Shown piece after piece: positions 240 through 62,042 of a stretch of 64,000 nucleotides of DNA (position 1 is its first letter; each line of letters opens with the position of its first letter). Position numbers and translations under genes: made by a program. This DNA is from Nannobrachium achirus (Eukaryota; Chordata; Actinopteri; Myctophiformes; Myctophidae): NCBI GenBank assembly GCA_963921795.1, contig OY997661.1, forward strand, positions 40,096,622 through 40,160,621, in the 5' to 3' direction. Below the pieces are notes generated by a model that was not told the origin of the DNA, searched no databases, and was given only the letters and a program-made list of their open reading frames with translations.

Positions 240-1345
240 CATTAATAATAATAATATCTGAAATGTATATAGTGCTTTTCTGAGTACCCAAAGACGCTTT
301 ACATGGGGCAAAAAGAACAAATTAAACAACTTTATTAAAGATTAAAAAAAAAACACTAAGACTAGGGAATAAAACCATTTAAAAACAATTAAACATAAGG
401 TAGATTAGCTGGGGAAAGCAATATGGAATAGGTGGGTTTTGAGGCTGGTTTTGAGGTTTTGGGGAGTGCATTCCAGAGGGTTGGGGCAGCAAAGGTCACG
501 GAGGACTAGAGCATTCACCAAGTACTTGAATATTCGAATATCAAAGTCACTATTCGACGTTGTTCACCGAAGTCGAATATTCGCTTCTTTTTAAAAAAAA
601 AAAATTCTCTTTAAAAAATATATAGTTCATAAAGCTTGGCTACTAGATAGGAAGTCATAAGAATGAGTTGTCAATGCCCCTGGTGGATGAATTTATTAAT
701 GCTCTATACCAGGGGTTCTCAAACCTTTTTAGGCCCTGACCCCCAAAATAAACATATTTGAACTGGGGACCCCCACCCTGACAAGCACTTGGAATTGTAG
801 GTATTACATTTAATGTGATTCGGTTCCGCAGATAAATATGTTGCGAGGCGTTGTGAGCATGTAGATCTGCTATTTTCACAATGTTTGCCTCTTGCTTACT
901 TAATATTTGACAGTTTGACCAGTCCTGTTGAATATTCGACTATTCGTATACTTTGAGGTCGAATACTTCGAATACTAAAAATCACTATTCGTGAATGCCC
1001 TACGGAGGACAGGTGTAATATGGTCTCTCGAGTGGGTACTGGTGAGCAGGAGGGCAGCAGAGTTCTGGACATATTGAAGTTTATTGAGGACTTTGGAGGT
1101 GGTGCCGTGGAGGATACTGTTGCAATAGTCGAGGCGGGATGTGATGAAAGCATGAATGAGTGTTTCAGCTGCAGAGAGTGTCAGAGAGGGGCAATGTTCT
1201 TGAGGTGGAACAAGGCAGTTTTGGTCATTACAGTTGTTGCCCCTGTTGAAGTACTTAGTAGCATGTTGTATGGACCCACTAGCACTTTGACATGGCAGCT
1301 TTGACACTGTTAGGATTCCTTGTTTCAAAGCACAATGACATGGCT
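240..1345 (-). mobile_element. LINE (L2/CR1-like) 3' fragment split by a hAT insertion
   Basis: On the minus strand, 1328 to 1011 encodes LTLSAAETLIHAFITSRLDY then CNSILHGTTSKVLNKLQYVQ and SRDHITPVL. This is the reverse-transcriptase thumb region typical of L2/CR1-group LINEs. The frame resumes at 498 to 400 with SVTFAAPTLWNALPKTS, the family's C-terminus. A 3' tail with the motif AGCGCC/AAGACGCTTTACA-like lies at 260-305. The gap is exactly the hAT element 507-1002. The 5' part is missing, as usual for LINEs. Confidence 0.8.
507..1002. mobile_element. hAT-type element with perfect 8-bp TSD
   Basis: Termini are TAGAGCATTCAC and GTGAATGCCCTA. The TSD CGGAGGAC is at 499-506 and 1003-1010. It sits inside the LINE at 240-1345, so it is younger than that LINE. 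It carries a nested partial copy of the CAGTGGTT hAT family (about 709-925) with half of the hairpin module at 836-881. Confidence 0.85.
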
Positions 1346-1859
1346 ATTTATGGACCCTGCAATTCTTAGTGGCGTGTAACAATGTCAAGGCTTAGTGGAG
1401 TTTGTGGTCTTTGGTTCATGATGACTGTGAGTTAATTACATTGTTATCCAATTCAGCATTATGCAATGAATGATTTAATTGACTACTTTTGTGTACAATG
1501 TTGCAGAAAGAGATTTTAATTTTGAAAAATGTGACGGGAAATGTGTGCGTGCGTGACAGGAAATGTGTGCGTGCATGCATGCGTTTTGGGCAATGACATA
1601 AGGTTATGGGTTTTTGTGCTACAACAACCAGTTTTTATGCTTAGGCAATAAAAAAAAACTTTGATGAATACTTCCCTCTGTTATGGTAAAGTGGTGCACT
1701 TGCGTTGGTCAACGTCAGTGTTCCAACTGGAAGAGAATGAGCTTTGAGAACAGCTGCACTGAAACATTATTAGCCCAGTGTTTTTGTGTCACTCTCTGTA
1801 TTGCTGTTAGCACTTAGGGAGTTTATCCTCTCCCATCATTTGGAGAAGATAATCTAACC
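1331..1859. other. No gene seen
   Basis: Non-coding sequence with a short imperfect repeat of GACGGGAAATGTGTGCGTGC near 1530-1590. Nothing else recognised. Confidence 0.6.
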
Positions 1860-2268
1860 CAGTGGTTCTCAACCTTTGGGTCGGGATCCCCAAGGGGGTC
1901 CCCACATTATTTTAGGGGGTCCCCAGATGATTAACTTAATGTGCAACACTGTTTTCTCACTCAACAGTAAACACACCAACATAAAGTTTAAGTGTATAGC
2001 ACATTTCTAAAGTGACAATTTAGGGACTTTTTAATACCTCTGAAATGACAAATTAAACATTGGCCTAATTATCAAATATTAGAGGCAGAAATTGTGAAAA
2101 TAGACGATCTACATGCTCACAACGCCTCGTGTTGCGAGGCGTTGTGAGCATGTACTATTTTCACAATAAAACCGTGTTATACAAAATGTAATGCCTCAAC
2201 TCTTAGTGCGCGTCAGTTCAAATATGATTATTTTGGGGGTCGCGGCCTGAAAAGGTTGAGAACCTCTG
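1860..2268. mobile_element. hAT-type MITE (CAGTGGTT family)
   Basis: The ends CAGTGGTTCTCAACC and GGTTGAGAACCTCTG are flanked by ATCTAACC (1852-1859) and ATCTAACA (2269-2276), a 7/8 TSD. It contains the hairpin module at 2094-2167. It ends about 30 bp upstream of the splice acceptor of the SDR exon. Confidence 0.8.
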
Positions 2269-2299
2269 ATCTAACACTCTCGTCCTTTTCCCCTGCCAG

Positions 2300-2526
2300 T
2301 GGAGGTGGTGATGAAAGAGAAAGTCACCCAGATATCCGACGGGGACCTGATGAAGGTGGTCAGCTGCATGGAGCACGCCGTGTCGGCGGTCCGCCCGCGC
2401 ACCCGCTACTCTCCCGGCTTCGACGCCAAGCTGTTCTGGCTGCCGCTGTCCTACATGCCCAGCTGTGTCACAGACTACATAATGCTGAAACAGCAAGTTC
2501 CCCTGGCCCTGGAGTCTGCCCAATGA
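2300..2526 (+). CDS. Last coding exon of an SDR retinol dehydrogenase / 17-beta-HSD6-like gene (partial)
   Basis: A CCCCTGCCAG acceptor at 2290-2299 is followed by an open frame of 75 residues ending in TGA at 2524-2526. The peptide contains HAVSAVRPRTRYSPGFDAK followed by LFWLPLSYMPSCVTDY. This is the C-terminal signature of the SDR9C group (RDH16, RDH5, HSD17B6, DHRS9), NAD(P)-dependent enzymes of the endoplasmic reticulum that oxidise or reduce retinoids and steroids. The Rossmann fold and the YxxxK active site lie in earlier exons, which are not visible between 1 and 2299 and so should lie left of the window. A hAT-type insertion (1860-2268) ends about 30 bp upstream of the acceptor, and another (2542-2723) lies just 3' of the stop. 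The subfamily member cannot be settled from this exon. Confidence 0.85.
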
Positions 2527-2541
2527 AGACCTAGTGTAGAT

Positions 2542-2723
2542 CAGTGTTTCTCAAACCTTTTACATTTTAAGGTCTTCCCCGTAACTCTGACAGTATACAA
2601 ATGGAACCAGTGTCCATTTGTAGTGTCCATTTGGTTCTGTGAAGAGTTAGAGACTTGTATGGTCAGTGTAGATCCCCATGAAGGAACCCACAGAGTCCAT
2701 GGAATCCACTTTGGGAACCACTG
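2542..2723. mobile_element. Short hAT-type MITE in the SDR 3' UTR/flank
   Basis: The ends CAGTGTTTCTCAAACC and TTTGGGAACCACTG are flanked by GTGTAGAT and GTGTAGTT (7/8). It is 182 bp and related to the copy at 5267-5635. Confidence 0.75.
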
Positions 2724-3279: not shown

Positions 3280-3778
3280 CAGGGTTCCCACGGTCATGAA
3301 ATTCCTGGAAATATTATCCAGTACTGGAAAAGTTTTGGAATTGATCAAGGGTCCTGGAAGGTCCTGGAAAAAATAGCTATGCATTGTCTTTGGTTATTGA
3401 TTTTGTTAATAACTCTGAAATGACAAATTAAACATTGGCCAAATTGTCAAATATTAGAGGCAGAAATTGTGAAAATAGCAGATCTACATGCTCACAACGC
3501 CTCGCAACTATTTTCACAATAAAACCGTGTTATAAAGAATTCCTCAACTCTTAGTGCTCGTCAGGGTGCCGGGGTCTCCAGTTCAAATATGATTATTTCG
3601 GGGGTCATAGCCTGAAAAGGTTGAGAACCACTGGCATACACTACCTGTCTTTGGGCATTGCGCATAGGAGTAAGCGACTCGTTATTGAGCTGAATTATTG
3701 TTATATAGTCCTGGAAATCGGTTTAAATATTCTGGAAAAGTTTTGGAAATGAATTGGTAAAGATGTGTGGGAACCCTG
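3280..3778. mobile_element. hAT-like element (CAGGGTTCCCAC ends) carrying a nested MITE
   Basis: The ends CAGGGTTCCCACGG and GTGTGGGAACCCTG are inverted. A CAGTGGTT-family fragment (about 3400-3633) is nested inside it, ending GGTTGAGAACCACTG and carrying half of the hairpin module at 3468-3515. The flanks share TATATC but no clean 8-bp TSD. Confidence 0.6.
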
Positions 3779-6430: not shown

Positions 6431-13213
<6,783 letters not shown>

Positions 13214-15059: not shown

Positions 15060-15575
15060 CAGGGGCGTCACAAGGGGGAGAAAGTGTGACTGAGTTACTA
15101 GGGCCAAAGGTGGAGGGCCCTTCATTATTTGATATACTTTAGCTGTTGAAAAATAGCAGATATAGCTATTTTTGAAAAAGTCGTGAAAATGTGTGCAAAT
15201 CTTTGAATATTATGTAGGCCTATTTTTAAGCGAACATTTGTAACTCAAATTGTGCTTCTGGGGGGTCCCTGGAACTAAATATTTTGAGATGGGGGTCTGT
15301 GGCCAAATACATATCATTTTGGGGGTCCTTCACATGAAAAAAGTTTGAGCACCACTGACAAAGAAAATCACGATTTTTTCAAAAATAACAGATCTACAAG
15401 CTCGCAGCACAGCACTCGGTGCAGCGCTGTGAGCTTGTATATCTGCTATTTTTCAATAGTTAAAGCACAAAATAATGCGTCCCCAGTCTAAATGAGTAAA
15501 CCCCCTTCACCTATGAAGAACATTCATGGGGGGCCTGCTGTGAATCATTGTACCCAGGGCCCAGAATTTGGTGCA
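15060..15575. mobile_element. CAGGGGYGTCRC-family hAT-type element, right end lost
   Basis: It begins CAGGGGCGTCACAAGGGGG and runs through a degenerate hairpin (15148-15180) and a full hairpin module (15375-15465) to GGGCCCAGAATTTGGTG. There it is replaced by the microsatellite block, so the right terminus is missing. Confidence 0.7.
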
Positions 15576-16172: not shown

Positions 16173-17711
16173 GTAGGGGGAGAGTGGGTGAGAGTGGTAA
16201 ACTGAGACACGTTTTACATTTGCTCCCCTCTAGGCGAACTAAAAGATATATCAGTAAAAATGTACACATTTCCCAGTAATGTGGGATGTTTCCTAACAAT
16301 GAAAGTTATCAGAATGTATTCAAGACAAAAGGCAGTGAAAATATGATTGTTTTATAAAAAGTGGTCTTGTGTCTCACTTTACCCCAGCAGTAAACTGAGA
16401 CCAACCAGAGAAACAGCGGCGGCTCCAGAGAATTGTGACTGGGGGGGCTATGGGGGAGCTGACTTTTTTAGAGCGGGGGCTCATTCATTTTGGCAACAAA
16501 CAATAACTAATAGTACTAATATATGACAAACGTGATTCACTCACACCTAGGTTATGGATAATTGAACAGACCAGATCATTGGAAGTTTCCAGCTACAAAT
16601 CTGAGGACTGTAGGTGATCGGATAGGGTTTTTGTGAGGCTGAAGATGCTTTCCAGCATAAAAAGTATGATTTTATAGCATGGTTTACATAGAAGGCAGTC
16701 AATTGTCTATCACATATTCATATACATTTTATTTATTTATTCCTTAAATACTTTTCATCAGTATTGGGTTTGTGGGGTGTCCTTGTCATTTCCACCCATG
16801 AGTCAAATAATTTGACACATGGGCAGAAAAAGAAAAAACCCTATAAAAAATGTATAAAAGGGTTTACCAAACTTTTCTCAGTTGATCCTTATGTAATTTT
16901 TCCTCTAGAATGCATTTCTGCAAAGTATATTGTTGTATATTGTTGTGCATAACTAATTAGATCATTAGCCTATTTAGTCAAATATGCTAATTGTCTCATT
17001 AATGATGGACAATACAAAAAATATATTGCAGAAATGTATTCTACATGGAAAAATACATAAGAATCAATAGAGAAAAGTTTGGTACACCTTTCATCAGGAT
17101 TTTTACAGCTTTCCCCCTGTCTATCATGTTGGGGTAATGTGAAATAGTGTCTCACTTTACCCCACAGCCACGTTTTGGGAACAAGGACATCTCTTATCAA
17201 TTCAGGGTAATCTTCAGCTAGCATCTATCACATGGATTTATAATAATAATAATCTTTATTGTCCCCGAAGGGAAATTTGTCTTCACAGTCTGTTCAAACA
17301 AGAAACAACACAACCACATAACAACACAAACATATCACAAAGACATCAATAGTACCCCACTATACACAGAAAAACCCTCTTAGCGACGGGGGCGATTGTT
17401 TATAAGTTGGTAGTTCATCAACATGTATGATATAAAATGTTCTTCCTGCATCAATTTGCTTTGACACAACAGCTGATTATGTTGACAGCAAGAAAATGTA
17501 CTTTTACTTGAAAAAACTAAACAAAACAAAACAAAATTGGGAAAAAAGCATGTTTACCCACAACACTATCAGGTCCTCTCCTTCATGGCAAGGGGGGAAT
17601 TCAAGGGTCTTGAAAATATAATGGTCACATGACCACAAATGTGTTCCATAGATACAGGGGGTGTCTCAGTTTACCCGGTGTCTCAGTTTACCCCGATCGT
17701 CTCTCCCCTAC
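16173..17711. mobile_element. About 1.5-kb element with TAGGGGAGAG..GGTAAACTGAGACAC inverted ends
   Basis: The left end GTAGGGGGAGAGTGGG, then GGTAAACTGAGACAC, is mirrored by GTGTCTCAGTTTACCCC and TCTCTCCCCTAC at 17670-17711. Inside, about 130 bp at 16838-16965 is inverted at 16975-17105. A LINE-tail-like segment (CTTTATTGTCCCCGAAGGGA) lies at 17250-17290. No transposase frame survives. Confidence 0.6.
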
Positions 17712-22383: not shown

Positions 22384-23263
22384 CAGTGGTCTTCAACGTT
22401 TTCAGGCCAAGGACACCTTAGTTGAGAGAGAGATGAAGCAGGGACCCCCACAACCTTTTTCAGAGATCCCATATAGTTTCATCGTTTGACAGCACAATCA
22501 GCAGTGTATTTTGGATTCGTGTCAATTTGTGTTTTCAGATATTTAACCACTTGAACCGTCAATACTTAATAAACTTGACCTTTCACTCTGTACTTGGTCT
22601 GCTCTTTTTCCCCTCTACACCAAACCTCCAAAAAATAGCAGATCTACAAGCTCACAACGCCTTGCGCTGCGAGGCTCTTTGAGCTTGATCAGCTATTTTC
22701 GGCTAAAGTTCTCAGAATATGGACACTAGGGTTCAAATAGTCTGGGATCACTTCACTTTTCGGGGTTGTAACCGTCTGGAGCGGAAACCACAACACGTCA
22801 TGTTGTAGTCCCTAAAGGACTACAATTTGCCGGAACTATCAAACCGGATTCAGTTTTAACCCAAAATGATTCCCCTGCGCTCAAGGACATACTTTTAGGG
22901 CCTACTTAATGAACTCCTTGATGCGGAGTAGTTTTGCTTTTGAAAACATCGTTTGGTATATGCATCTTTTAGTCCAACTCGTAGCAACTGGCAAGACTAC
23001 GCAAGGCTAAAAGGGATTGGGGAAACAAACAGGGGGAACAAAATCAAACCAACGCCGCTTCTTCTAGTGGTTTCCGCACTTTAGGCGGAAACCAAACGGC
23101 CTGTTGTGAACGAACACCAAAAGCCTGGTAGGCGAGTTTAGGGTTCAAGTGGTTAATATAAAAAAGGAGAAAAAAGGTTTCTATCACACAAAGATTTGGA
23201 GGACCCCCTGTAGTGACTCTGAGGAGCCCCTAGGGGTCCCGGACCCCCTGTTGAAGACCCTTG
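22384..23263. mobile_element. hAT-type element 1 of a tandem pair (shared TSD)
   Basis: The ends CAGTGGTCTTCAACG and GTTGAAGACCCTTG lie between TTCTAGAT at 22376-22383 and 23264-23271. It carries a nested TTAA-flanked element at 22547-23152. Confidence 0.85.
22547..23152. mobile_element. Nested TTAA-flanked element with a hairpin module
   Basis: The ends CCACTTGAACC and GGTTCAAGTGG are bounded by TTAA (22543-22546 and 23153-23156), suggesting a piggyBac-like MITE. It includes the hairpin module at 22631-22700. Confidence 0.65.
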
Positions 23264-25676: not shown

Positions 25677-26141
25677 CAGGGTTCCCCAATAGGCGGCCCG
25701 CAGGCCATTTGCGGCCCGCGGGGGGCTACTGTCTGGCCCCCACCAACCCCAGTAATAATGGTGGTATAAGAGCAGCAACAACACTAGTATATCGTCGTTG
25801 TCAGGTGGACACCTCGTATCTCCAAATTTGTACGTTCTTTCGCAAATCATACAAGGCCGTCGCACAAAAGTAGTGAAAACAGCAGATCTACAAGCACACA
25901 ACGCCTCGCACCGCGAGGCGTTGTGTGCTTGTAGATCGGCTGTTTTCACTAGTTTAAATAATTTTTAAAATAATAAATTCAAAACGAACGGTTTTGGACA
26001 TACAAGATTTTCACCCGTCAACGACAAAAACTGTCGCTGGAGTAGCGGGCACGCCACCGTTGCCCCTTGCAATGTTGTGGCCCTCGGCTTGGTACCCTAG
26101 ACATAATTCGGCCCTTGGGGAAAACTAATTGAGGAACCCTG
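25677..26141. mobile_element. hAT-type element (CAGGGTTCCCCAA ends), perfect TSD
   Basis: The ends CAGGGTTCCCCAATAGGCGG and AATTGAGGAACCCTG are flanked by TCATACAC on both sides (25669-25676 and 26142-26149). The GGCGGCCCGC..GCGGCCCGCG text is typical of this hAT group. A family-D element (25789-26027) is nested within. Confidence 0.85.
25789..26027. mobile_element. Family D MITE (TATCGTCGTTGTC ends), copy 1
   Basis: The inverted ends are TATCGTCGTTGTCAGGTGGA and CACCCGTCAACGAC. The centre is a full hairpin module (25872-25952) with the arms GATCTACAAGCACACAACGC and complement. Other copies are at 29212, 34211 and 49228. Confidence 0.65.
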
Positions 26142-39430: not shown

Positions 39431-40043
39431 CATGTCAAACACAAGCAGAAATACAAAAAAAAAAAAACTACTAACACAACCTAATAGTTCTGTGTCCAAA
39501 GGTCAGAGCGATAAAAACATGTGTGAAGGTACTCAAAGCAGCATCCCACCAACTGTCATCAAATGTCAGTCCCAATTCGGCTTCCCAGGCCTCCCTGGTT
39601 CTATTAATGGGAGTATCGTCTGAGGACAGGAGTCCATTATAAATTCACTTCTGGTGCTGGTAGGTAACTGTAAATACTGTTCATAGCGTTCAAAAGAAAA
39701 ATGACAAGGCATTTCAGTTTGCAAATGAAAGAGTCCTTTGTTGAAGCCAACTTTAAGCGTTCATGTTGTGGCACACACGGGTCATCGTAAGGTGTTCAGG
39801 GTTTGCTTTGGCCTCACAGGGTGCCAGGTAGGCAAGGTTTGTTTGCCATAAAGGACAATTCAATGAATGCCTGAAAGTTTAAATATATTCACTAGAAATT
39901 ATTTGTCCAGACGCTATAAACCCCATCTTTTATACAATGTACACGGCACACCGGTTAAACACTTCAAGATTATTTGCACATTTATATTCATTAATTTAAC
40001 AAATGGGTAAATTAACCCTGGGAATGTTACTGTGTACTGCAAC
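39431..40043. other. No gene seen
   Basis: Non-coding sequence. Confidence 0.5.
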
Positions 40044-40593
40044 CAGGGGCGTCACAAGGGGGGGGGGGGGGGGAGGAGTGGGACTGTGTTACTAGGGCCC
40101 AAGGTGGAGGGGGCCTTAATTATTTTATACTTTATCTATTGAAGCATAGCAGATATACAAGCTCACAGCGCCAAGCTGCGAGCTTGTAGATCTGCTATTT
40201 TTGAAAAGCTGTGAAAATGTTTGCAAATCTTTGAATATATGTATTTTTAAGCAAACATTTGTAACTCAAATTTTGCTTCTGGGGGGTCCCTGGAACTAAA
40301 TATTTTGAGATGGGGGTCCGTGGCCAAATACATATCATTTTGCGGGTCCTTGACATGAAAAAGTTGGAGCACCACTGATGTAGGAACATAGGTTTTTCAA
40401 AAAAACTTAGAAGGATTTGATATATTCAGACATTTCACGATTTCTCAAAAATAGCAGATCTACAGGCTCGCAGCGCGGCACTCGGTGCCGCGCTGTGAGC
40501 TTGTAGATCTGCTATTTTTCAATAGTTAACGCACAAAATAACGCGTATAATGCGTTCCCAGTCTAACCCCCTCCCCCTATGAAGAACATTCAT

Positions 40594-40624
<31 letters not shown>

Positions 40625-40668
40625 GAATCCTTGTACCCAGGGCCCAGAATTTGGTGGTGACACCCTTG
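40044..40668. mobile_element. CAGGGGYGTCRC-family element with two hairpins
   Basis: It has CAGGGGCGTCAC..GTGACACCCTTG ends. CTGCAAC is shared by the flanks (one base offset from an 8-bp TSD). Hairpin modules are at 40138-40208 and 40440-40530. Long G runs are at 40061-40074 and 40596-40618. Confidence 0.85.
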
Positions 40669-40849
40669 CTGCAACTGTCAGCTCTCCTTTATATCAGAAT
40701 GTTATGGAAACTTGTCGGGACACAGATGAGCTACTGTTAGCTCTTTTGCTTTCGTTGCTAGGGGTAATCTAATGGAATTACAAGAGCGCGATGGAAGAAG
40801 TGGATAATGGAGGAGATGGTTAGTCATTCGCCCCAGTCACTCACGTCGC

Positions 40850-41430
40850 CAGGGGCGTCGCACCAAATTCTGGGCCCTGGGTACAAGGATTCACCGCGGG
40901 CCCCCCTATGAATGTTCTTCAGAGGGGGAGGGGGTTTGACCCATTTAGACTGGGAACGCACTATTACGCATTATTTTGTGCTTTAACTATTGAAAAAAGC
41001 AGATAAACAACTTGAAGATCTGCTATTTTTTTTAAATTGTGAAAATCTGTGTGCAAGTCTTTGAATATTTCAAATTTCAAATGTTTCTATGTCAGTGGTG
41101 CTCAAATTCTTTCATGTGAAGGAGCCCCAAAATGATATGTATTTGGCCACGGACCCCCATCTCAAAATATTTCCTTCCAGGGACCCCCCCAGAAGCAAAA
41201 TTTGAGTTACAAATGTCTGCTTAAAAAAATACATATATTCGAAGATTTGCACCCATTTTCACGACTTTTCAAAAATAGCAGGTTTACAAGCTCACAGCGC
41301 GGCACTCGGTGCCGCGCTGCGAGCTTGTAGATCTGCTATTTTTCAATAGCTAAATAATGAAGGCCCCAACCACCTTGCGCCCTGGTAACTCAGTCCCACT
41401 CCCCCCCCCCCCCCCTTTGTGACGCCCCTG
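40850..41430. mobile_element. CAGGGGYGTCRC-family element, perfect TSD, two hairpins
   Basis: TSD CACGTCGC at 40842-40849 and 41431-41438; ends CAGGGGCGTCGC and GTGACGCCCCTG. Hairpins are at 40990-41035 (short) and 41268-41350 (full). 581 bp. Confidence 0.92.
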
Positions 41431-41899
41431 CACGTCGCTCACGTCTGCAGAGCTGTGACTTCACATCCAAGGAACATGCATTATCTTGTGAAAACAGTGG
41501 TTAGGCTTCAGTTCACCGGAAAGGTACCAGGAAGGGTGGGGGGTGGGGTGGGGAGGTCCAGGGTGGGAAGGGGGGTATCAAATGGGTAAGTGGAGGCTTC
41601 CACGATGCCATAAAAATGAAGAGTATTTCCGTGGGATTTCTTTGTGTACGTGTGTTTTTATGACACCCATCTGTTGGCAAGATCACTATTAAAAAGAAGA
41701 AAACACCTCAGGGTGCAAACCTAGCTCTGGTCCATATAGCGTTAGTGGAGTTCTCCCTAACGCTATGTTCCTCTACCTCCCACATCCTTGGCAAATCCAG
41801 AAAGACCCGTCGTCTGGTCCGAAAATAACAAAAACTGTTTTGCCCCTCGCCAAACCAAAGGTATCAGTGGACAGTTGAAAGCTTACTCTAGTACTTAGT

Positions 41900-41955
41900 T
41901 GGAGTTGGGCCTGTGGAAAAGGGGCTTAAGCCCCTTTTCCACAGGCCCAACTCCA
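41900..41955. repeat. 56-bp perfect palindrome
   Basis: GTTGGGCCTGTGGAAAAGGG and its exact complement meet at GGGGCTTAAGCCCC with no loop. It is formed by two head-to-head ends of the AAGCCCCTTTTCCAC repeat. Confidence 0.9.
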
Positions 41956-42474
41956 CACCACTCCACACCACACCGCCCACTTGTGCCAGGTTTTCCACTA
42001 CAAGGACCTGGGTAGAGTGGTGTGAAAGTGGTACTAAACGGGGTACTAAAAAGTATCCACTCTAGAGTAGATCTGAGCTAGGCCACACAGGGCCAAACAC
42101 ATCATAATGACTGATCACTCACTGGCTTTTCATTTAGAGTACCATGATATAGTTGTAATACATGATAATAGATTCTATTGTGTTATAACCACTATTATAA
42201 TCTATTATAGTGTATTATAATTATCATAGTAATACATTAATACTTTATAATGTATTATAATCACAGTTATAATCCATTATAGTGGAATATAATTAGGATA
42301 GTTGTAATACAAATTTATATTGTATTATAATCACAGTTAAAAGGGTCAATTTGTTTCTTACCGATAGGGGTACTTTTGTGTAATGGAAAATGTAGATATT
42401 TTTATGTGGTGCGGTGTGGTGTGGTGTAGTGTGGTGTGGTGTGGTGTGGTGCTAAAACTGCAGTCGAAAAGGGG
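41928..42474. mobile_element. AAGCCCCTTTTCCAC-family foldback MITE
   Basis: The left end AAGCCCCTTTTCCACAGGCC is mirrored by GCAGTCGAAAAGGGGCT on the right. The interior has the CCACACCACTCCACACC / GGTGTGGTGTGGTG inverted runs typical of this teleost MITE. A partial copy lies at 49665-49735. Confidence 0.65.
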
Positions 42475-42639
42475 CTATTGTGAGCTTGTAGGTCAGCTAT
42501 TTTCACAAACGTTTGACACATTTTTTCAAAACTTTAATACTTCAACTTTGGCATTGCATTTGCAAAAAAAGAAATGCTTTATGTAAACCTGGACAGCGCT
42601 TTCCTAATGATAAAATATCATTATAAAATTCATTATTTT

Positions 42640-43070
42640 TTCATTCATTATTTTATGCTTTAACTATTGAAAAATAGCAGATATACAAGCTCACAGCGCG
42701 GCACCGAGTGCCGCGCTGCAAGCTTGTAGATCTGCTATTTTTGAAAAATCGTGGAAATTTTCATTTTGACCTGATTCTATAAGTGTCTTTTGAATCCTTC
42801 TAAGATTTTTGGAAAAACCCTATGTTTCTATGTCAGCAATCTGGCCAGCCATCGTCAAAGAAAAGGTCCTTTTCACTTAACTGGAGCTCACTTAGTCTGT
42901 TCTTGAGAGACTACTATGTCAGTGGTTCTCAAACCTTTTCATGTCAAGGACCCACCAAAATGATTTTTATTTGGCCACAGACCCCCATCTCAAAATATTC
43001 ACTTCCAGGGACCACCCAGAAGCAAAATTTGAGTTACAAACGTTCGCTTTGAAAATACATCTAAGGTCAT
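42640..43070 (+). mobile_element. Composite hairpin/hAT repeat, left copy flanking the TRIM cluster
   Basis: CTTTAACTATTGAAAAATAG leads into a full hairpin module (42668-42752). Then comes CAGCAATCTGGCCAGCCATC text and a CAGTGGTTCTCAAACC hAT-like segment. The same order occurs inverted at 50200-50640. Confidence 0.75.
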
Positions 43071-43273
43071 TATAAAATTCTGTCACTATACAATGCAATG
43101 AGAGAGAGTATGTATGATCAATATCACATCGGGTTGTGATCTATAAGCTCATTTACACGTCACATTGTGAACGTTGTGAGCTTGTAGATCGGCTACTTTT
43201 GCTTTTGTGTGACACTACTATGATGAAGGGCATAAATGCATGAAAAAACTAATGAAATGTGGAGATACAAGGT

Positions 43274-43446
43274 CAGGGGTGTCGCACCAAATTCTGGGCC
43301 CCGGGTACAAGGATTCACTGCGGGCCCCCCATGAATGTTCTTCATAGGGCGAGGGGGTTTAACCCATTTAGACTGGGAACACATTATTTTGTGCTTTAAC
43401 TATTGAAAAATAGCATGCAGACAAACAAGCTCACAGCGCGGCACAG
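43274..43446 (+). mobile_element. CAGGGGYGTCRC-family element, 5' part only
   Basis: CAGGGGTGTCGCACCAAATT to the first hairpin arm (43400-43446). It is cut where the CCATATATGG repeat unit begins. Confidence 0.7.
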
Positions 43447-43800
43447 ATATGGGCTGGTGAGGTCAGACTTAGTGTGATGCGTAGGTTATCTCCATATATG
43501 GAGATTCAACTTCAATGAGTAACCATGGCAAACTGTCAACTGATAAGGTCTGAGTCGAAGAAATGCTTCTTTCCTGGCAATAATTTTCCCTTTATACTGT
43601 ATGGCTCGTTTGTGTATTGTATGACATCACGCCACATCATCGGCTGAGGACTGTGTGATGTCATCATATCTCCATGTATGGAGACATAAGTTGCTCATGC
43701 CCAAATATGGGCTGGTGAGGTCAGACTTAGTGTGATGCGTAGGTTATCTCCATATATGGAGATTCAACTTCAATGAGTAACCATGGCAAACTGTCAACTG
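43447..43800 (-). repeat. Orphan copy of the TRIM upstream module, with a 97-bp direct duplication
   Basis: 43545-43770 matches 45993-46275, the region upstream of the frameshifted TRIM gene. It includes the same order of GTATAAAG-type box, TGACATCACGCCACATCATC and CCATATATGG. The segment GGGCTGGTGAGGTCAGACTT to CAAACTGTCAACTG is present twice (about 43450-43541 and 43707-43800). No TRIM frame follows it. Confidence 0.7.
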
Positions 43801-44436: not shown

Positions 44437-45712
44437 TTAACAAAAAAAGATAAGACATGGACTGAAGAATGGAAAGAGTTTCTCAGTGAAGGAGCAGCCA
44501 GTGAAAGAGTAGAGATGAACTCTGGCCTCCACATCATGAAAGGAGACCAGACCCTCCTCATAATCCACAAACACTCCCACTTTCTGGACCTTCTCTCTTA
44601 CAGGGAGGAGGACATCAGGGTCCGCATGAGCCCAGTACTCATTTCCATTCCTCAACCTTATAGTCCAGAAACCATTGTTGGGACTCAGATTTTTTTCACC
44701 TTTCCTGTTGATGGACTCTCTGGCCACTCCTAAAATCCACTCAGTCTTCCCTGTAACCTGAACCTCATAGAAAAACCTTCCTGAGGAGAAGCTTTGTTTT
44801 CCTAAGACATTGAAGACATTGATATATCTAGAGAATCTCTTTGTGTTGTCAGGGAGATTCTTCCTTGCGTTTCCATGACTCACTTGTTTTCCATCCTTAG
44901 ACAGGATGAGGTAGCGATTTGCTGTATCAGGATCCAGAGTCACATCCACCTCATATTGCTGGATCCTCCTCAGCTCAGCATCACACAGCTTCTTCTCCAT
45001 CTCTTGACTGAGTGTCTTCTCCAGCTGAGCCACAGCTGTCCTCACTGTCCCCACATGTGGAGAGTGGAGACTGATGGACATTGACCTTTGTCCAGTCCTT
45101 GGTGGGTCTCCATCCAGTGTTATTGGATGGGAATTTCTGAACGGGTTGGTCTTCAGAGTGTGAGATCTGTTTCAGATCAGAGCTTCTCTTCTCCAACTGA
45201 GTGATTTCCTCTTGCAGTTCTTTAATGAAGCCTTCAGCCGGTTTCTCTGTTGTTTTCTGCTTCTCTTCAATCACATCAATGAGCTCAGCCTGGCTTCTCT
45301 CAATACAGCTGATCAAAGCAGTGAAGACCTGCACACTGTCTGCTCTCTCTCTGTCTGCGTCTTTCCTGCTGAGCTCTACTGAGTGTTGGATCTGGTGAAT
45401 CTTCTCTTGTCTCTCCTGGATCATCTGCTGAACCTCAGCCTCTGTCTTTGCTTCGAATTCTTCTTTCAACTTGTGACTCCTGAACTGTTGAACCATCTCG
45501 GAAAACAAAGTATTGACAGATACCTCTGGTCTCCTATCGAAGGTTCTGTTACATAGAGGACACTTACACACATCACTGGTGTCCCAGTAATGTGTGATGC
45601 AGGCTTTGCAGTAGTTGTGTCCACATGAAGTGGAGACTGGATCAGTGAACACCTCCGTACAGATAGAACACAGGAAGTGATCTTCAGACAGCAGACTGCT
45701 GGCAGAGGCCAT
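44437..45712 (-). pseudogene. TRIM-like gene copy A, frameshifted (RING / coiled coil / PRY-SPRY, no B-box)
   Basis: It reads from MASASSLLSEDHFLCSICTE (start 45712) through a C3HC4 RING and a coiled coil. The frame breaks at 45061-45067, where a 7-bp tandem insertion (AGTGGAG) is present relative to copy B. The PRY-SPRY half continues in another frame (ELRRIQQYEVDVTLDPDTAN to VGVFVDYEEGLVSFHDVE). It ends FFSPCLIFFC, lacking the NDGGRNSAPL tail of copy B. RING-SPRY proteins of this fish group are putative E3 ubiquitin ligases of innate immunity. With the frameshift the copy would yield a RING-coiled-coil protein of 243 residues, so it is either a pseudogene or a truncated product. Confidence 0.8.
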
Positions 45713-45992
45713 TTCTACACACTGACAATCAACGTGAAAGTGTTAGACGATTTTGGCATCTTGTTACTGCAGTAGGCCCTATTCCCGGGTTTCGGCACCA
45801 TATAAAATAGCTACTAAAGAGAGACTGGTTTCTAGGGTTAGGACCCGCCGCAGTGGTGTCCGGTTAGAACTTAACCGAGATGCCTTGAATCGTATGAGAG
45901 GATCTGAAGTCTTGCTGGGAGAACTAGCCGAGTATCTTGAGATGGTTGTAAGTGATGATAAGCTATAGGCTTCGGTGATCCTGGCGGTAAGG

Positions 45993-46487: not shown

Positions 46488-47819
46488 CTAATCTATGTGA
46501 TTGACAGGAGAGATGATCAGAGGAGCAGAGTTTCTACCACCATCATTAGGCTCAGGACCGAAGAATGGAAAGAGTTTCTCAGTGAAGGAGCAGCCAGTGA
46601 AAGAGTAGAGATGAACTCTGGCCTCCACATCATAAAAGGAGACCAGACCCTCCTCATAATCCACAAACACTCCCACTTTCTGGAGCTCCTCTCTTACAGG
46701 GAGGAGGACAGGAGGGTCAGCAGCAGCCCGGTACTCATTTCCATTCCACAACCCTATAGTCCAGAAACCATTGTTGGGACTCATGATTACACCTTTCCTG
46801 TTGATGGACTCTCTGGCCACTCCTAAATCCCACTCAGTCTTCCCTGTAACCTGAACCTCATAGTAAAACCTTCCCGAGGAGAAGCTTTGTTTTCCTAAGA
46901 CATTGTCATATCTAGAGAATCTCTTTGTATTGTCAGGCAGATTCTTCATTATGTGCCATAATGCCATAAACGGTCCTACGTTTCCACAACTCACTTGTTT
47001 TCCATCCTCAGACAGGATGAGGTTGGGAGGTGCTGTATCAGGATCCAGAGTCACATCCACCTCATATTGCTGGATCCTCCTCAGCTCAGCATCACACAGC
47101 TTATTCTTCATCTCTTGACTGAGTGTCTTCTCCAGCTGAGCCACAGCTGTCCTCACTGTCCCCACATGTGGAGACTGATGGACATTGACCTTTGTCCAGT
47201 CCTTGGTGGGTGGAGGGGTGTTGATGGATGAGATGTTGTGGAGGAGGTGGAGGTGGTCTTCAGTGTTTGAGAGCTGCTTCAGCTCAGAGCTTCTCTTCTC
47301 CAACAGAGTGATTTCCTCTTGCAGCTCTTTAATAAAGCCTTCAGCCTGTTTCTCTGTTGCTTTCTGCTTCTCTTCAATCACATCAATGAGCTCAGCCTGG
47401 CTTCTCTCAATACAGCTGATCAAAGCAGTGAAGACCTGCACACTGTCTGCTCTCTCTCTGTCTGCATCTTTCCTGCTGAGCTCTACTGAGTGTTGGATCT
47501 GGTGAATCTTCTCTTGTCTCTCCTGGATCATCTGCTGAACCTCACCCTCGGTCTTTGCATCAAATTCTTCTTTCAACTTGTGACTCCTGAACTGATCGAC
47601 CATCTCAGAAATAAAGGTATTGACAGATACTTCTAGCCTCTTGTCGAAGAGTTTGGCACACAGTGGACACTTACACACATCACTGGTGTCCCAGTAATGT
47701 GTGATGCAGGCTTTGCAGTAGTTGTGTCCACATGGAGTGGAGACTGGATCAGTGAACACCTCCGTACAGATAGAACACAGGACGTAATCTTCAGACAGCA
47801 GAATGCTGGCAGAGGCCAT
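46488..47819 (-). CDS. TRIM-like E3 ubiquitin ligase copy B, intact, no B-box, intronless
   Basis: A single open frame of 443 residues. The RING is C15-x2-C18, C30-x-H32-x2-C35-x2-C38, C51-x2-C54 (C3HC4). A coiled coil follows directly at about 90-190 (VQQMIQERQEKIHQIQHSVE), and PRY-SPRY (B30.2) covers about 253-435 (VTLDPDTA, WTIGLWNGNEY, VGVFVDYEEGLVSF). Related fish TRIM proteins (TRIM16/21/39-like) carry a B-box between RING and coiled coil. Here only about 10 residues (VDQFRSHKLK) separate them. Residues 281-291 (VGPFMALWHIM) are absent from copy A. The family ubiquitinates targets bound by SPRY; the substrate is unknown. Tandem duplication with copy A is clear. A TATA-like box lies upstream at 48033-48042. 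Confidence 0.9.
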   Translation of the reverse strand: MASASILLSEDYVLCSICTEVFTDPVSTPCGHNYCKACITHYWDTSDVCKCPLCAKLFDKRLEVSVNTFISEMVDQFRSHKLKEEFDAKTEGEVQQMIQERQEKIHQIQHSVELSRKDADRERADSVQVFTALISCIERSQAELIDVIEEKQKATEKQAEGFIKELQEEITLLEKRSSELKQLSNTEDHLHLLHNISSINTPPPTKDWTKVNVHQSPHVGTVRTAVAQLEKTLSQEMKNKLCDAELRRIQQYEVDVTLDPDTAPPNLILSEDGKQVSCGNVGPFMALWHIMKNLPDNTKRFSRYDNVLGKQSFSSGRFYYEVQVTGKTEWDLGVARESINRKGVIMSPNNGFWTIGLWNGNEYRAAADPPVLLPVREELQKVGVFVDYEEGLVSFYDVEARVHLYSFTGCSFTEKLFPFFGPEPNDGGRNSAPLIISPVNHID

Positions 47820-48032
47820 TTCTACGAGGGTGAGGATAGAAGATCACTATTGTGACTCTTCTGGTGAATGTGTTCGATGTTCGATGTTCGATGTTCGCTA
47901 CAAATCCAACGTTAAGCGGTGAAGAAGATGTGAAAGCTCAAGGATTCCTCTAGCAGGTGGTGAGTAGTCCACTAGGGGGCGATGGTGCGTCGGTACGAGC
48001 TGGTGAATGGTGTTCTCTCAGTGTGGACTCTA

Positions 48033-48660: not shown

Positions 48661-48782
48661 CTTTCTGTGTGGAGTTTGCATGTTCTCCCCGTGTCAAAAA
48701 AAACAAAAAAACATGCAGTAATCCTGGTCTCTATACTGCCTCCCCCTGGTCAGACGGGGAATCTAAAATAGCTAAAATAATT

Positions 48783-48854
48783 GTGAGCGTGTAGATCTGC
48801 TATTTTCACAACCGTGTTATACAAAACGTAATGCCTCAACTCTCAGTGCTCGTC

Positions 48855-49018: not shown

Positions 49019-49227
49019 TGGTCTAGATAAGGTGTGTTGTGACGAGGGGCCCATTAGCCCCCCCCCCCCCCCCCCCTCAAAGGACAGATGGATGGTTGTG
49101 TGTTGTGGGGCCCCCGTTGGGGGGCCCGTTGGGGGGCCCCCAGCGCGGCTCCTCTGAGGGGAAACAAACACACTGAAGTGAGAAAAGCTTTTAACTGAAA
49201 GGTTCTGCTGGGAACGCATTACAACCA

Positions 49228-49379
49228 TCTGCACACAACGCCGTTGTGTGCTTGTAGATCCGCTGTTTTCCCTACTGTTGTGCGACAGCCTTGTATGATG
49301 AAGCAGGGCTTTACTTTGCGAAGAAACGTACACATTTGAAACTTGGAGATACAAGGTTTCTTCCCGACAGTGACGATAT
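49228..49379. mobile_element. Family D MITE, copy 4 (right half)
   Basis: GTTGTGTGCTTGTAGATCC, CTTGTATGATGAAGCAGGG, then CCCGACAGTGACGATA. It matches the right half of copy 2. Confidence 0.6.
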
Positions 49380-49459: not shown

Positions 49460-49650
49460 CTTTGAATATTTCAAATCCTTCTAAGGTTTTTTGGGAAAAA
49501 AAACGATGTTTCTATGTCAGTGGTGCTCAAACTTTTTCATGTGAACGAAATTTTCATAAAAAAATAGCAGATCTACAAGCTCGCAGCGCAGAGCTTGTAT
49601 ATCTGCTATTTATTGATAGTTAAAGCACAAAATAATTAAGGCCCCCTCCA
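49460..49650. mobile_element. CAGGGGYGTCRC-family fragment with hairpin
   Basis: GTCAGTGGTGCTCAAAC text is followed by a hairpin module at 49558-49620 and AAGGCCCCCTCCACC. No termini. Confidence 0.6.
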
Positions 49651-49739: not shown

Positions 49740-49930
49740 TTACTTACCATTTTTAGGTACTTTTACTACATGTATGTGTTTCCACTTTTCAACAAATTCT
49801 CCAATACCTCATGGGCAAATATTGTACTTTTCACTCCACTACAATCATATGAAAACTTTAGTTACTAGTTACTTTGCAGATTTAGATTATCATTACAAAA
49901 TGGCAGATCTACAAGCTCACAGTGTGTTGC
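49740..49930. mobile_element. ACTTTTACTC repeat fragment ending in a half hairpin
   Basis: The text GGGCAAATATTGTACTTTTC and TTTAGTTACTAGTTACTTTG matches 27640-27700. It ends with GGCAGATCTACAAGCTCACA. Confidence 0.6.
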
Positions 49931-50199: not shown

Positions 50200-50640
50200 T
50201 GTCTTTGAATATAATGTATTTTTAAGGAAACGTTTGTAACTCAAATTTTGCTTCTGGGTGGTCCCTGGAAGTAAATATTTTGAGATTGGGGTCTGTGGAC
50301 AAATACATATCATTTTGGGGGTCCTTCACATGAAAAGGTTTGAGAACCACTGACATAGTAGTCTCTCAAGAACAGACTAACTGAGCTCCAATTAAGCGAA
50401 AAGGACCTTTTCTTTGACGATGGCTAGCCAGATTGCTGACATAGAAACATAGGTTTTTCAAAAAATCTTAGAAATATTCAAAAGACACATAGAATCGGGT
50501 CAAAATTCTAATTTTCCAGATTTTTCAAAAATAGCAGATCTACAAGCTTGCAGCGCGGCACCGAGTGCCGCGCTGTGAGCTTGTATATCTGCTATTTTTC
50601 AATAGTTAAAGCGTAAAATAATGATACACAATAATGTGTA
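50200..50640 (-). mobile_element. Composite hairpin/hAT repeat, right copy flanking the TRIM cluster
   Basis: Inverse of 42640-43070 with the same internal order (hAT-like segment, AGATTGCTGACATAG, full hairpin at 50525-50610, CAATAGTTAAAGC). The loop of its hairpin is inverted relative to the other copy. Confidence 0.75.
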
Positions 50641-55976: not shown

Positions 55977-56404
55977 CAGTTGTTCTCAAACTTTTCAGGC
56001 CGCAACCCCAAAAATAATCATATTTTAACTGGGGACCCCCCACCCTGACGAGCACTAAGAGTTGGGACAGTACATTTTGTATAACACTGTTCTATTGTGA
56101 AAGTCTAGCAGATCTACATGCTCACAACGCCTCGCATTGCGAGGCTTTGTGAGCATGTAGATCTTCTATTTTCACAATCTCTGAGTCTAATATTTGATCA
56201 TTTGGCCCAATGTTTAGTCTGTCATTTTAGAGGTATTAAAAAGTCCTTAAATTGTCACTTTAGAAATGTGCAAATACCCTCTATACACTTAAAGTTTGTT
56301 GGTTTGTTTACTGTTGAGAAAACAATGATTAGCCAATCATCAGGGGACCCCCCAAAATAATTTAGGGACGCCCCTAGGGGTCCCGACCCAAAGGTTGAGA
56401 ACCA
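55977..56404. mobile_element. hAT-type MITE (CAGTGGTT family) with full hairpin
   Basis: The ends GCAGTTGTTCTCAAAC and AAAGGTTGAGAACCAC are present. The hairpin module is at 56098-56178 (arms GATCTACATGCTCACAACGC and complement). The interior aligns with the copies at 1860 and 10531. Confidence 0.75.
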
Positions 56405-56509: not shown

Positions 56510-56657
56510 GTCAAATGATATAAGAGGCAACAATTGTGAAAATAACAGATCTACAAGCTCACTGCATTCCAAGTGCTTGTCAGGGTGGAGGGTCCCCAGT
56601 TCAAATATGACTATTTTGGGGGGTCCCCAGTTCAAATATGATTATTTGGGGGGCTTA
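56510..56657. mobile_element. CAGTGGTT-family fragment
   Basis: GTGAAAATAACAGATCTACA (half hairpin), then AGTTCAAATATGA repeated twice in tandem (56610-56645). Confidence 0.6.
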
Positions 56658-58090: not shown

Positions 58091-58529
58091 AAATAATAGG
58101 ATATATATAAATATATAATTTATTTTAAGAAAGAAAAAAAAGAAAAAATATATATTTTAATAGCATTATTATTATAGCAGTATTGAATGCACAATGTGAT
58201 TTTACACAATTTTATACATAAATATACAATATATGTTGTAGCCCCCTTCCCTACCCTACAAGGTATCTCAGTTATAACTATTATAATTATAATAAACATA
58301 CTATAAAGTGTTAGGCCTATATACATCATTGGAAAAAATACTATTTTTGTCAATACTGCATGTAGAAATACTCTGTAACAAATCATTCTAAATTTACTTA
58401 AAGTACAAAACTGTTGGTATGAAAATGTATTTAAAGTGCAAAAGTAGAAAGTACTCATTATGCAGAATCTTTGAAAAGAGCAGATCTACAAGCTTACAAT
58501 GGCATTGGTAACATTTTTGAGAGGCCATT

Positions 58530-58839: not shown

Positions 58840-59136
58840 TTGTTCTGCTCCAGGATTCTGGCTACCCCCCCTAAATCACATGCGCTGAGTCAGAATATGC
58901 AGGTTTTATTCCAATGCGCAAACAGGAAGTGTCTCAAAACTGCCACTTCCTGGTGTGTTTTGGGTATTACGAGTTGGTAGGTGCTCCGATATATTTTTTT
59001 CTCATGTCTGCATGTCATTTTAAGCCTCAGGTCGACATTCAGTAACCCTAATATCCTATCGTGATTTTATAGTAATTCAAAGGAGGCTAACCCTAGTTTA
59101 ATCCTAGGAATGTCGCACAGAAATAAAACACACCTC

Positions 59137-59502
59137 CACGTGTTCGTCTCGGTGAGCTATTCAACATACTAAAAGATGCGCCCTTGACACATGATGGTTT
59201 CGGACTTATAACACGAAATAGCTAACCCTAGGGTCAGCTATTTCGCGTTATAAGTCAAAGACGATGCGACATCAGACCTTGGTTCCGAGATATGTTGTAG
59301 AGCTCTCCGAGACGAACGTGTGGATGTCTTGGTTATCCTCCTACGACCTTTCTTCCCTGGGATCTCCAATTTGACTAAGGGTCATAGAGTCTATAAACGT
59401 TAGAGCACATTGAATGCCAGGCCAGAGAAAGCTATCTCCTCACAGGAGTGTCTGTGTGGGATGAACCTTATACTGGCGTGTTCAGCTCGCAGAGACGAAC
59501 AT

Positions 59503-59544: not shown

Positions 59545-59645
59545 CTCCTCTATACGACACTCCTGTGCCGAGAGAACGGCCCCTAAAGTTAGAATTAGGG
59601 TTAGCCCTCTAGGGGTCATACATCAACGCGTTCGTCTCAGCGAGC
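59137..59645. repeat. Four dispersed GTTCGTCTC.G.GAGCT units and a hairpin
   Basis: CGTGTTCGTCTCGGTGAGCT (59139) recurs inverted at 59301 (AGCTCTCCGAGACGAACGTG) and 59482 (CAGCTCGCAGAGACGAACAT), and direct at 59628 (GCGTTCGTCTCAGCGAGCTG). Between them, 59203-59256 is a hairpin with 21-bp arms and one mismatch (GACTTATAACACGAAATAGC). A (GT)n run sits at 59503-59541. Confidence 0.75.
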
Positions 59646-60299: not shown

Positions 60300-60690
60300 G
60301 CTATATACTGGCCAATCTGAGTCTTTAATGTGACTTAAATGAGATAATCTTGAGAGCTCTTTTACAGCTCAACAGTGGTCATTCTGAGACAGACCTGAGA
60401 TGTAACAAAAAGCCTTAATTGAGCTTTAAATGAGATTATATTGAAAGCTATTTTTTATATCACTTGGAGCTAAGTTTGAGACGCAACAATCCAGATGAAT
60501 TGAGCAATATTTGAGACATTATTGAGCTCTCCTGTATAGCTCATCAGAGCTTCCATCTGAGGCATGTTGCTCCCCAGAAATAGAGGAGAAACAGGAGCAA
60601 TACCTGAGATCTCCTTTTTGTATCACCTTGATCTCATTTGTGGCTTGAGAAACAAAAGAGCAATAGATGAGGGCTCAATCATGGATTCTG
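60300..60690. repeat. TGAG-rich degenerate tract, copy 2
   Basis: Phrases such as CTTAAATGAGATAATC, TTAATTGAGCTTTAAATGAG, AATTGAGCAATATTTGAGAC and CACTTGGAGCTAAGTTTGAG recur. The style and several phrases match 51890-52180. Confidence 0.55.
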
Positions 60691-61145
60691 CTTTCCTCTG
60701 GGAGAGGCCCAGAGTCAACTCCTCCAAATCCCTAGTGTAAAGTCGTGGCTAAACTAATACTATATAAAAGTGACAGTGATAATTCCCACAGGATAAGTAC
60801 TTGCTGTGTTCTCCCCACTTCACTACAAGACAGGGTTTGGAACGCAGCCAAATTTAAGGAGGTCTATCTTTCAGGGCAACATTCTTGGATGACAGCCCGC
60901 CTGTGGTCGCGTTATGCCTCTGAGTATGGAATACAGTCGACTATAAAAACACGCACATGTCATTCTTGCAACAGAGCTTTACAGTAGCAGACAGAGAGGG
61001 ACCACAGGCTTTTGAATTGCTCTGATCCAAAGCCAGGTTTCATATAAAATATTCTTGATTCGCATATTTTAAACTCTTGAGTCCTAAAAGCCTGATAAAT
61101 TGTTTAACCACTTAATAACACCCAATATACTTTGTTGTACATTGA

Positions 61146-61232
61146 CAGCGAAAATCGCCAATCTACAAGCTCACAATGTGTCGCAATGCAACACGCTGTG
61201 AGCTTGCAGATCTGCTATTTCCGATAGATGTT
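61146..61232. repeat. Hairpin module, diverged standalone copy
   Basis: CCAATCTACAAGCTCACAAT, a GTCGCAATGCAAC centre, then CTGTGAGCTTGCAGATCTGC. It is not inside any recognised element. Confidence 0.75.
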
Positions 61233-61465
61233 CACCTATATTTTTGGTCTAATATTTGTCTATTTTGTCTATGTTTGACAATTAATAGGATAGAATAGGG
61301 ACATTAGTATGTGGTTCAATAAGACTCAGAAACAGGTTTATTCATCATACTTTTACCGCAACTACAGGTGTGATTTAATTCAGAAGAAGCAAAATGGCCT
61401 GTTTGAATAGTTAAAGAATGTAATTTGACTATCTAATTTAACTGCGTTACTGTCTAATAGGCCCA

Positions 61466-61800
61466 TTGTGGTGCCACTACCCAACAGCTGTTAATCTGAC
61501 TGTGAATTCAAACATTATTCCATTCGGCAGATTCGAGCAAGTCATCGCAAAGACCACAAGAAAAAAAAGAACGTACTATTTCAAGGATGAAATCGATCTT
61601 TTTTTGGGTCAGATGCGGCCGTTGTATAGTCTTCAGGGAACGTGTTTGTTGTTTTGTGAGACTGCGTTATATGATTTCCCAGGTGAATGGGTACACCTTC
61701 CGCAGGTTTTTGCCTTCGGGTATTCGTTCTCTAGCCGCCCCTCTTTCAAGGTTCCTGGACTTGTCTGGAGGAGAGACACCTGGAAAGCCATTTCCATGCA
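61466..61800 (+). mobile_element. Possible LINE endonuclease-start fragment
   Basis: FKDEIDLFLGQMRPLYSLQG then TCLLFCETALYDFPGEW resembles the start of CR1/L2 LINE endonucleases (LRSLQGTSVLFFTETWL). The match is short and imperfect. Confidence 0.3.
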
Positions 61801-61995
61801 CTGTAGCAAGAAGAAGAAGAAGAAAAAAAAAAAAAAGATACTCCAGGTTACTGTAATGTCTTGTGAGGAGAACTGGAGATTGCCCAGGTTCTCTCTCGGC
61901 AAGGCTGGGACCGAAGCTGCCAGGCAGGGACGTGCAGAGAATGTTAGAGAGGCAGGGGCTGACATTTCTAAAAGGGCCTTTTGGTGGAAATATTG

Positions 61996-62042
61996 AAAAT
62001 AGCAGACCTCAACTCAGCTTGGAGGTCGGCTATTTTCGGTGC
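61996..62042. repeat. Shortened hairpin module
   Basis: GAAAATAGCAGACCTCAACT and CTTGGAGGTCGGCTATTTTC form a shorter stem with changed but still paired inner bases. Confidence 0.7.

Follow-up and report, generated by a model that had tools for sequence, protein, structure and literature searches.

A palindrome shared by small DNA transposons with different ends in Nannobrachium achirus

Why should one and the same hairpin lie inside transposons whose ends differ? The question is raised by a stretch of 64,000 nucleotides from Nannobrachium achirus (Myctophidae; contig OY997661.1, positions 40,096,622 to 40,160,621), hereafter the window, in which a palindrome of 70-odd letters with a stem of about 35 bp and a 3-base loop recurs within dense, short repeats. 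An earlier reading of the same DNA, referred to here as the original prediction, had described it as a hairpin module of several unrelated transposon families. With about even confidence, we propose that it is an inherited palindrome that travels with its host elements and owes its lasting symmetry to template switching. It would be an old palindrome in the interior of small DNA transposons, non-autonomous and often of hAT type, and would multiply as its hosts are mobilised via their own, differing ends, with no movement of its own. During replication, one arm may serve as the template for the other, and such template switching would occasionally re-perfect, extend or invert the hairpin in active master copies. 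After insertion each copy would decay on its own, the tip being prone to deletion.

Copies, hosts and descent

Searched on both strands of the window, the arm AGATCTACAAGCTCACA is found 6 times without error, and 27, 42 and 46 times with at most one, two and three mismatches, compared with means of 0, 0.05 and 0.3 at 1, 2 and 3 mismatches in dinucleotide shuffles (n=20). The 46 matches merge into 32 loci. A covariance model built from 13 hairpins gave 83 matches at E ≤5 on the two strands, those with E <0.01 falling at 28 places, and contributed three family A copies that lack the tip (15149, 29938 and 40992) as well as a weak hairpin at 61995; the estimate of about 35 copies in the original prediction is thus a fair one. 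All 11 full copies named there match the model at E <0.01, ten of them by construction, as they belonged to its training set, and the copy at 2096-2162 independently (E 4e-12). Each of the eight hairpins tested folds better than its shuffled counterparts (z -4.5 to -16.2; energies of -20 to -72 kcal/mol), the weakest fold (7745-7815) being equalled by 1 of 200 shuffles, so that the stems form as claimed. Of the boxes said to bound them, the exact form GAAAATAGC, described as usual, occurs only 10 times, because family A mostly carries AAAAATAGC instead.

Self-comparison, sequence reading, alignments and flank profiles assign the 32 loci to hosts: 12 to family A, 7 to B, 5 to C, 3 to K and one each to the elements F and T, with three left unassigned (27808, 42479 and 61159). 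The view that a single module sits in several hosts with differing ends is borne out; several hosts have terminal inverted repeats (TIRs) and target duplications of their own. Duplications were found for A6 (CACGTCGC, 8/8), F (TTGGGGAT, 8/8), B2 (7/8), C2 (TA) and T (TTAA). Hosts A, B and F combine short TIRs with 8-bp duplications and are hAT-like; T, whose TIRs are flanked by TTAA, and C, flanked by TA, are not. By eye, 8-bp duplications are also present on both sides of A2 (CTCACCAA) and A3 (AGGTCTGG). The duplication search, which covered 15 sites, returned none for A2, B5, C3, E2, E6, E8 and E10, and the 8/8 duplications at E1 (element T) and C1 belong to enclosing elements, not to T or C. 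As a control, a TIR together with an 8/8 duplication was sought at block-shuffled sites (0 of 200) and at real places chosen at random (8 of 300). Of the 10 hairpin places, 3 had the combination, in two cases owing to the elements that enclose T and C1. Two further candidate hosts were dismissed on reading: the match at E7b joins pieces of other repeats, and the ends of the match at E4 (7/8 duplication) resemble no known end. Six of the 26 open reading frames listed in the window were scanned with Pfam and contained no transposase domain.

The description of the hosts as unrelated fails for the two commonest, A and B, which together account for 19 of the 32 loci. Family A (CAGGGGYGTCRC) has two hairpin sites in inverted orientation, which are not both intact in each copy. 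Its inner segment, from the left hairpin to the centre (in A5, 40206-40383, + strand; flank alignment and profiles), starts on the reverse strand with CAGTGGT, and its counterpart is the left end of family B (CAGTGGTT). We compared the flanks of 16 hairpin sites pairwise (480 comparisons) and searched with profiles made from two to four copies each of A, B, C and K. For the left hairpins of A5 and A6 (A5L, A6L) against B2, B5 and B6, Smith-Waterman scores reached z 6.6-10.5 in 6/6 comparisons. The A-inner profile matches seven of eight B-family copies (E 2.7e-7 to 0.09), the best match, B4, using a different profile region from the other B copies, and among the matches listed the B-left profile finds at least seven of eight A copies (E 9e-4 to 0.023). 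The flanks of the right hairpins of A5 and A8 yielded no match with B among those listed. From hairpin to CAGTGG-type end the distance is 122-124 bp in B and 175 bp in A5. These alignments make A a composite in which the hairpin lies behind a B-type end, and the hairpin shared by A and B a product of descent, because neighbouring sequence is shared along with it.

The remaining hosts look different. Flanks of C, K, F (E3), T (E1) and E2 have no convincing similarity to A or B, either pairwise or, for C and K, as profiles. Leaving aside the pair E7b-E6, both K, the highest of the other cross-family scores are z 4.4 (A6L-F) and z 4.2 (E2-E6); as candidates for homology both were set aside as chance among 480 comparisons. 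On present evidence C, K, T and F therefore appear as separate contexts, and descent is established for A and B alone. The palindrome is likeliest to have entered these four through deep common descent with turnover of the flanks, or through element-to-element copying by template switching.

A stricter form of descent, in which all hosts derive from one hairpin-bearing ancestral element whose ends and flanks were replaced or diverged, seems to us rather unlikely. It draws on the homology between A and B, on the CAGTGG-type ends found in B, at the inner end of A, in K and in the element around T, on the similar range of hairpin-to-end distances, and on the weak flank similarity of A6L and F, which heads the other cross-family comparisons. 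Against this, no convincing homology to A or B was seen for C and K when their flanks were used as profiles, or for T and F when theirs were used as single sequences and as targets, and C, T and F have entirely different TIRs. We also consider it unlikely that a palindrome of ~75 bp circulates by template switching among families with different ends (hAT types, TTAA, TA) as a passenger and not a transposon, or that it is an end-proximal signal used by different transposases. If the module does pass from family to family and leaves no duplication of its own, replication errors at palindromes can move sequence between transposons, and transfer of this kind would help to explain composite miniature inverted-repeat transposable elements (MITEs).

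Paired arms, selection and mobility

As the original prediction held, the two arms vary together between families. With one hairpin per context (the right hairpin of A5, A5R, and those of B6, C1, E1 and E2), 89.5% of cells pair, and nine pairs (10 cells) have changed on both sides, compared with a shuffle mean of 3.5 and none of 500 shuffles as high; sliding the register by 1-3 columns leaves only 1-3 such pairs. The 13-sequence alignment is 91.1% paired and again has nine both-side pairs, a count attained by 2 of 500 shuffles. Comparison of the arms of eight hairpins revealed that the six from family A differ from C1 at 8-10 of 35 positions per arm, and that 6-7 of these changes are matched on both arms.

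Footprints of template switching listed in one study (PMC8794818) are multiple compensatory changes, inverted loops and stem extension; another (PMC8604942) gives arm homogenisation and spacer inversion. Our hairpins resemble these cases in their paired changes, stem extension, inverted loops and homogenised arms, but concern a many-copy transposon module, whereas the examples described there are RNA genes and yeast coding genes. The right hairpins of A7 and A8 are identical in 70/70 arm bases, while their 3-base loops are exact reverse complements and 23 of 313 aligned bases differ in the flank beside them; this is one case of an inverted loop with unchanged arms. Contiguous pairing continues outward for 5 further bases in two of three B copies and for 8/9 in two of three C copies, counts that include poor boundaries for B6 (damaged box) and C3 (one base off); in seven A hairpins outward pairing is only scattered. 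In C2, the tip has been swapped for alternating reverse-complement copies of the arm. Template switching in master copies would account together for the paired changes between families, the stem extensions private to B and C, the inverted A loop and the reiterated-arm tip of C2.

The original prediction had left open whether the fold is kept or repeatedly re-templated. Re-templating fits best; keeping of the fold at the level of the individual copy is not supported. Gaps of at least 6 bp occur in 16 of 26 hairpins, compared with 0.25-0.58 of same-size windows, an excess in line with palindrome instability. (The conservation set comprises these 26 copies; the fragments A7b and C5 and the block specific to A7 and A8 are left out.) In addition, three identical arm mismatches are common to the left hairpin of A2 and the right hairpins of A7 and A8; an imperfect form has therefore spread. 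Family by family, preservation is slightly higher in the hairpin than elsewhere in the element (A, 0.920 versus 0.854; B, 0.791 versus 0.721; C, 0.828 versus 0.805). Hairpin-free windows of the same size do, however, reach that level for the left hairpin of A (129 of 288), for B (14 of 199) and for C (28 of 31), so that excess conservation is not consistent across these three; for the right hairpin of A the count is 0 of 270.

Several of these results weigh against our proposal, beginning with the separate contexts of C, K, T and F and their dissimilar flanks. The right hairpin of A, in surpassing 270 of 270 windows, could reflect selection; the gap excess is modest and comes from related copies; and the clear loop inversion is a single event. 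Further pair types in the 13-sequence alignment number 16, against 16.6 in shuffles, which is no excess. Furthermore, 0 of 15 comparisons among the six A hairpins, three of them between identical arms, exhibit a change on both arms; hence no young copies are seen undergoing homogenisation. We read this as coupling that occurred in the lineages leading to the families, with resident copies decaying arm by arm. Finally, selection for pairing in master copies would yield the same pattern between families.

Selection of this kind, acting on the fold of master copies, is the main rival. It could operate if the palindrome were a cis-acting site that helps several families to move, with either a host factor or a BED-domain hAT transposase binding it in DNA or cruciform form, so that selection on master copies keeps both hairpin and pairing; we judge such a site improbable. 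The hairpin does lie 84-175 bp inside an element end (11 distances measured), and hAT transposases are described as using terminal and subterminal repeats and BED domains (PMC4763223 and PMC10368747). The paired changes between families, the likeness of the arms across hosts with non-aligning flanks and the preservation of the right hairpin of A point the same way. On the other hand, the host ends differ, two hosts being of TTAA or TA type, the imperfect hairpin of A2, A7 and A8 was propagated all the same, the covariance model places a hairpin near just one end of T, and the left hairpin of A, B and C lack consistent excess conservation. With dozens of palindrome copies in hosts of different age, the module amounts to a natural experiment on template switching versus selection as the source of paired stem changes, an issue usually argued from RNA genes.

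Movement of the hairpin itself receives no support from this window. The corresponding explanation, a tiny palindromic transposable element like Made1, whose ends nearly meet, that entered several host families and unique sites in separate insertions, is in our estimate very unlikely, although it would be in keeping with the common core of C, K, T and F, whose flanks are not shared, and with the few places (27803, 42473 and 61150) for which no host is delimited. No target-site duplication was observed at the ends of 17 hairpins: direct repeats average 2.8 there and 2.8 in mismatched controls, and repeats of at least 4 bp occur at 1 of 17 hairpins versus 51 of 218 controls. Moreover, outward pairing varies by family, and the window contains no clean empty site; the hairpin-less copy B4 and the hairpin-less right side of A2 retain an outer-arm remnant, as after deletion. 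The tiny mobile foldback suggested originally thus finds no footing here. Made1 elements, the source of hsa-mir-548, are likewise near-perfect palindromes of about 75-80 bp with a few central bases (PMC1784062), but Made1 is itself mobile and made of mariner ends, whereas the present palindrome lies inside other elements and lacks a duplication of its own. Retention as a source of miRNA-like (microRNA-like) or siRNA-like (small interfering RNA-like) RNA is hardly credible, as the Made1-like stem length and fold (PMC1784062) and energies appropriate to a fold of precursor size are offset by Rfam matches that comprise only UnaL2 in the window at gathering score and, at a loose threshold applied to 40000-41500 only, 17 matches from many different families, all below cutoff.

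The hosts resemble vertebrate non-autonomous hAT MITEs in TIRs such as CAGTGGTT and CAGGGGYGTCRC and in the 8-bp duplications of A6, F and the element around T, but differ in having an internal hairpin common to families with different ends; we know of no description of such an arrangement. Short interspersed nuclear elements with shared central domains (V, Deu, CORE) likewise combine a conserved module with families of different ends, although these are retroposon bodies and not palindromes. To our knowledge, K-like repeats of other teleosts usually lack a hairpin. Six arm strings occurred in no paper text searched, literature searches on hairpin MITEs of fish or of hAT type produced nothing on the module as judged by titles and the beginnings of abstracts, and the part of PMC7786948 consulted has nothing on it. 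In the viral database IMG/VR, a 17-base arm pattern hit five loci, none with a hairpin and attributable to chance, and four other patterns had no match; two scans of GTDB gave 0 and 2 bacterial loci.

Individual elements and their surroundings

Unless stated otherwise, the hairpins below were located with the covariance model and by alignment; strands are given as + or -. The element A5, a hAT-type MITE with two inverted hairpins (40044-40668, +), was delimited by self-comparison, reading and alignment. Its left hairpin (40142-40202, +) has a 12-bp tip deletion, and its right hairpin (40447-40519, +; fold, covariance model and arm comparison) has arms identical at 33/35 positions and the loop TCG. 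A6 (40850-41430, -; alignment and duplication search), with its 8-bp duplication, bears a left hairpin at 41271-41343 (-; covariance model) and a right one without tip at 40992-41030 (-). A1 has a right hairpin at 15381-15453 (+) and a left one shrunk by a 48-bp tip deletion (15149-15173). A2 retains only the left hairpin (26502-26574, +), the right one being lost, and both hairpins of A3 are partly deleted (right, 28655-28713, -; left, 28943-29003, -). In A4, the left hairpin (30236-30308, -) is accompanied by a tip-deleted right one (29938-29970). The two right hairpins that differ by loop inversion are those of A7 (42670-42742, -; loop TCG, from the covariance model and loop comparison) and A8 (50527-50599, +; loop CGA, from arm and loop comparison). 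A half-hairpin next to a right-end fragment of A lies at 43401-43447 (-; arm match 43419, from alignment and arm search), and a tip-deleted hairpin in a family A fragment at 49560-49613 (+; self-comparison, reading and covariance model). A7 and A8 share an extra block between CTGACATAG repeats, 86 bp long in A8 (50359-50444), which A1-A6 lack; either insertion or loss between the repeats could explain it.

In family B, the element B2 (CAGTGGTT, hAT-type MITE with a 7/8 duplication; 1860-2268, -; alignment and duplication search) includes a hairpin with one arm short by 6 bp (2096-2162, -). The hairpin of B6 is full length (56101-56173, +; fold and covariance model) and that of B5 has no tip (10653-10697, +). 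B5 also contains a 150-bp tandem duplication (10700-11000, 98.7% identical), which is probably younger than the element itself. A single arm remains in B1 (841-877, +) and B3 (3471-3515, -), both by reading and alignment, in B7 (48764-48807, -; reading and covariance model) and in D1, within a decayed B copy (56530-56565, -; reading, alignment and flank profile).

The C1 hairpin (25875-25947, +), identified by inverted-repeat search, folding and arm comparison, extends its pairing outward to 25867-25955. C1 sits within another hAT-like element (25677-26141) with the TIR CAGGGTTCCCCA and a perfect 8-bp duplication, TCATACAC. The element C2 has the TIR TCGTCGTTGTCG and TA on both sides (29213-29498, -; alignment and duplication search). 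The C3 hairpin has mostly lost one arm (34322-34373, +), that of C4 is damaged (49217-49270, -), and C5 is a diverged hairpin with a C-like flank (43129-43200, -; covariance model and flank profile).

Element F (TAAGGTTGTCAC.../...GTGACAGCCCCA; 7618-7929, +) emerged from the duplication search; it was missed by an exact-seed TIR search, as its TIRs agree at only 9/12 positions. It is flanked by the 8-bp duplication TTGGGGAT and has a central hairpin (7749-7809, +; covariance model). Element T (22547-23152, +), found by TIR and duplication search, has TTAA on both sides and the TIR CCACTTGAACC, agreeing at 11/12 positions, with its hairpin at 22631-22700 (+; covariance model), the only end near which the model places one. 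The same search delimited the CAGTGG hAT-type element enclosing T (22384-23263; duplication TTCTAGAT, 8/8). The motif TTAACCACTT recurs at 61104 and at 56655, the latter next to B sequence; it might point to additional copies of T or, judged by eye, be decayed B.

Family K, a ACTTTTACTC repeat whose end ...CCACCACTG lies at 28145, contributes a single arm at 27946-27965 (+; reading and flank profile); the same copy holds a second hairpin, to which no host of its own is assigned (27803-27868, +; reading and covariance model). Flank profiles place further single arms in a truncated K copy (49898-49921, +) and in the K copy E10 (58475-58500, -). The duplication search detected no target duplication around E6, E7b and E10. 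E2 is a full hairpin with no delimited host (61150-61222, +; covariance model and duplication search), E8 a half hairpin with no assigned host (42473-42505, +; motif search and reading), and the site at 33878 an isolated 9-mer with no hairpin. The hairpin at 61995-62037 (+; fold and covariance model) is a weak relative that has the outer box in common and a different centre. A nested palindromic element at 59106-59353 has an inner hairpin (59193-59266) that weakly matches the model (E 0.005) and bears a GAAATAGC box.

Around these elements, amid dense and nested short repeats, the window contains TRIM/SPRY genes and a UnaL2 3' element of a long interspersed nuclear element, which give it the look of teleost sequence. 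At 44437-45742 and 46488-47843 lie two adjacent TRIM genes (RING, coiled coil, PRY-SPRY) that are 89% alike; the second is a single open frame, and the first falls into two frames that overlap. The segment 35063-37777 is a 1.36-kb tandem duplication (90.7% identical) with more repeats inside. Long inverted repeats at 9359-9602 (82-bp arms) and 16841-17108 (91-bp arms) are possible foldback or MITE copies. A perfect palindrome at 41900-41955 with 31-bp overlapping arms is built from a back-to-back pair of GGAAAAGGGGCTTAAG-type ends, and similar motifs appear again near 42470, 49719 and 55013.

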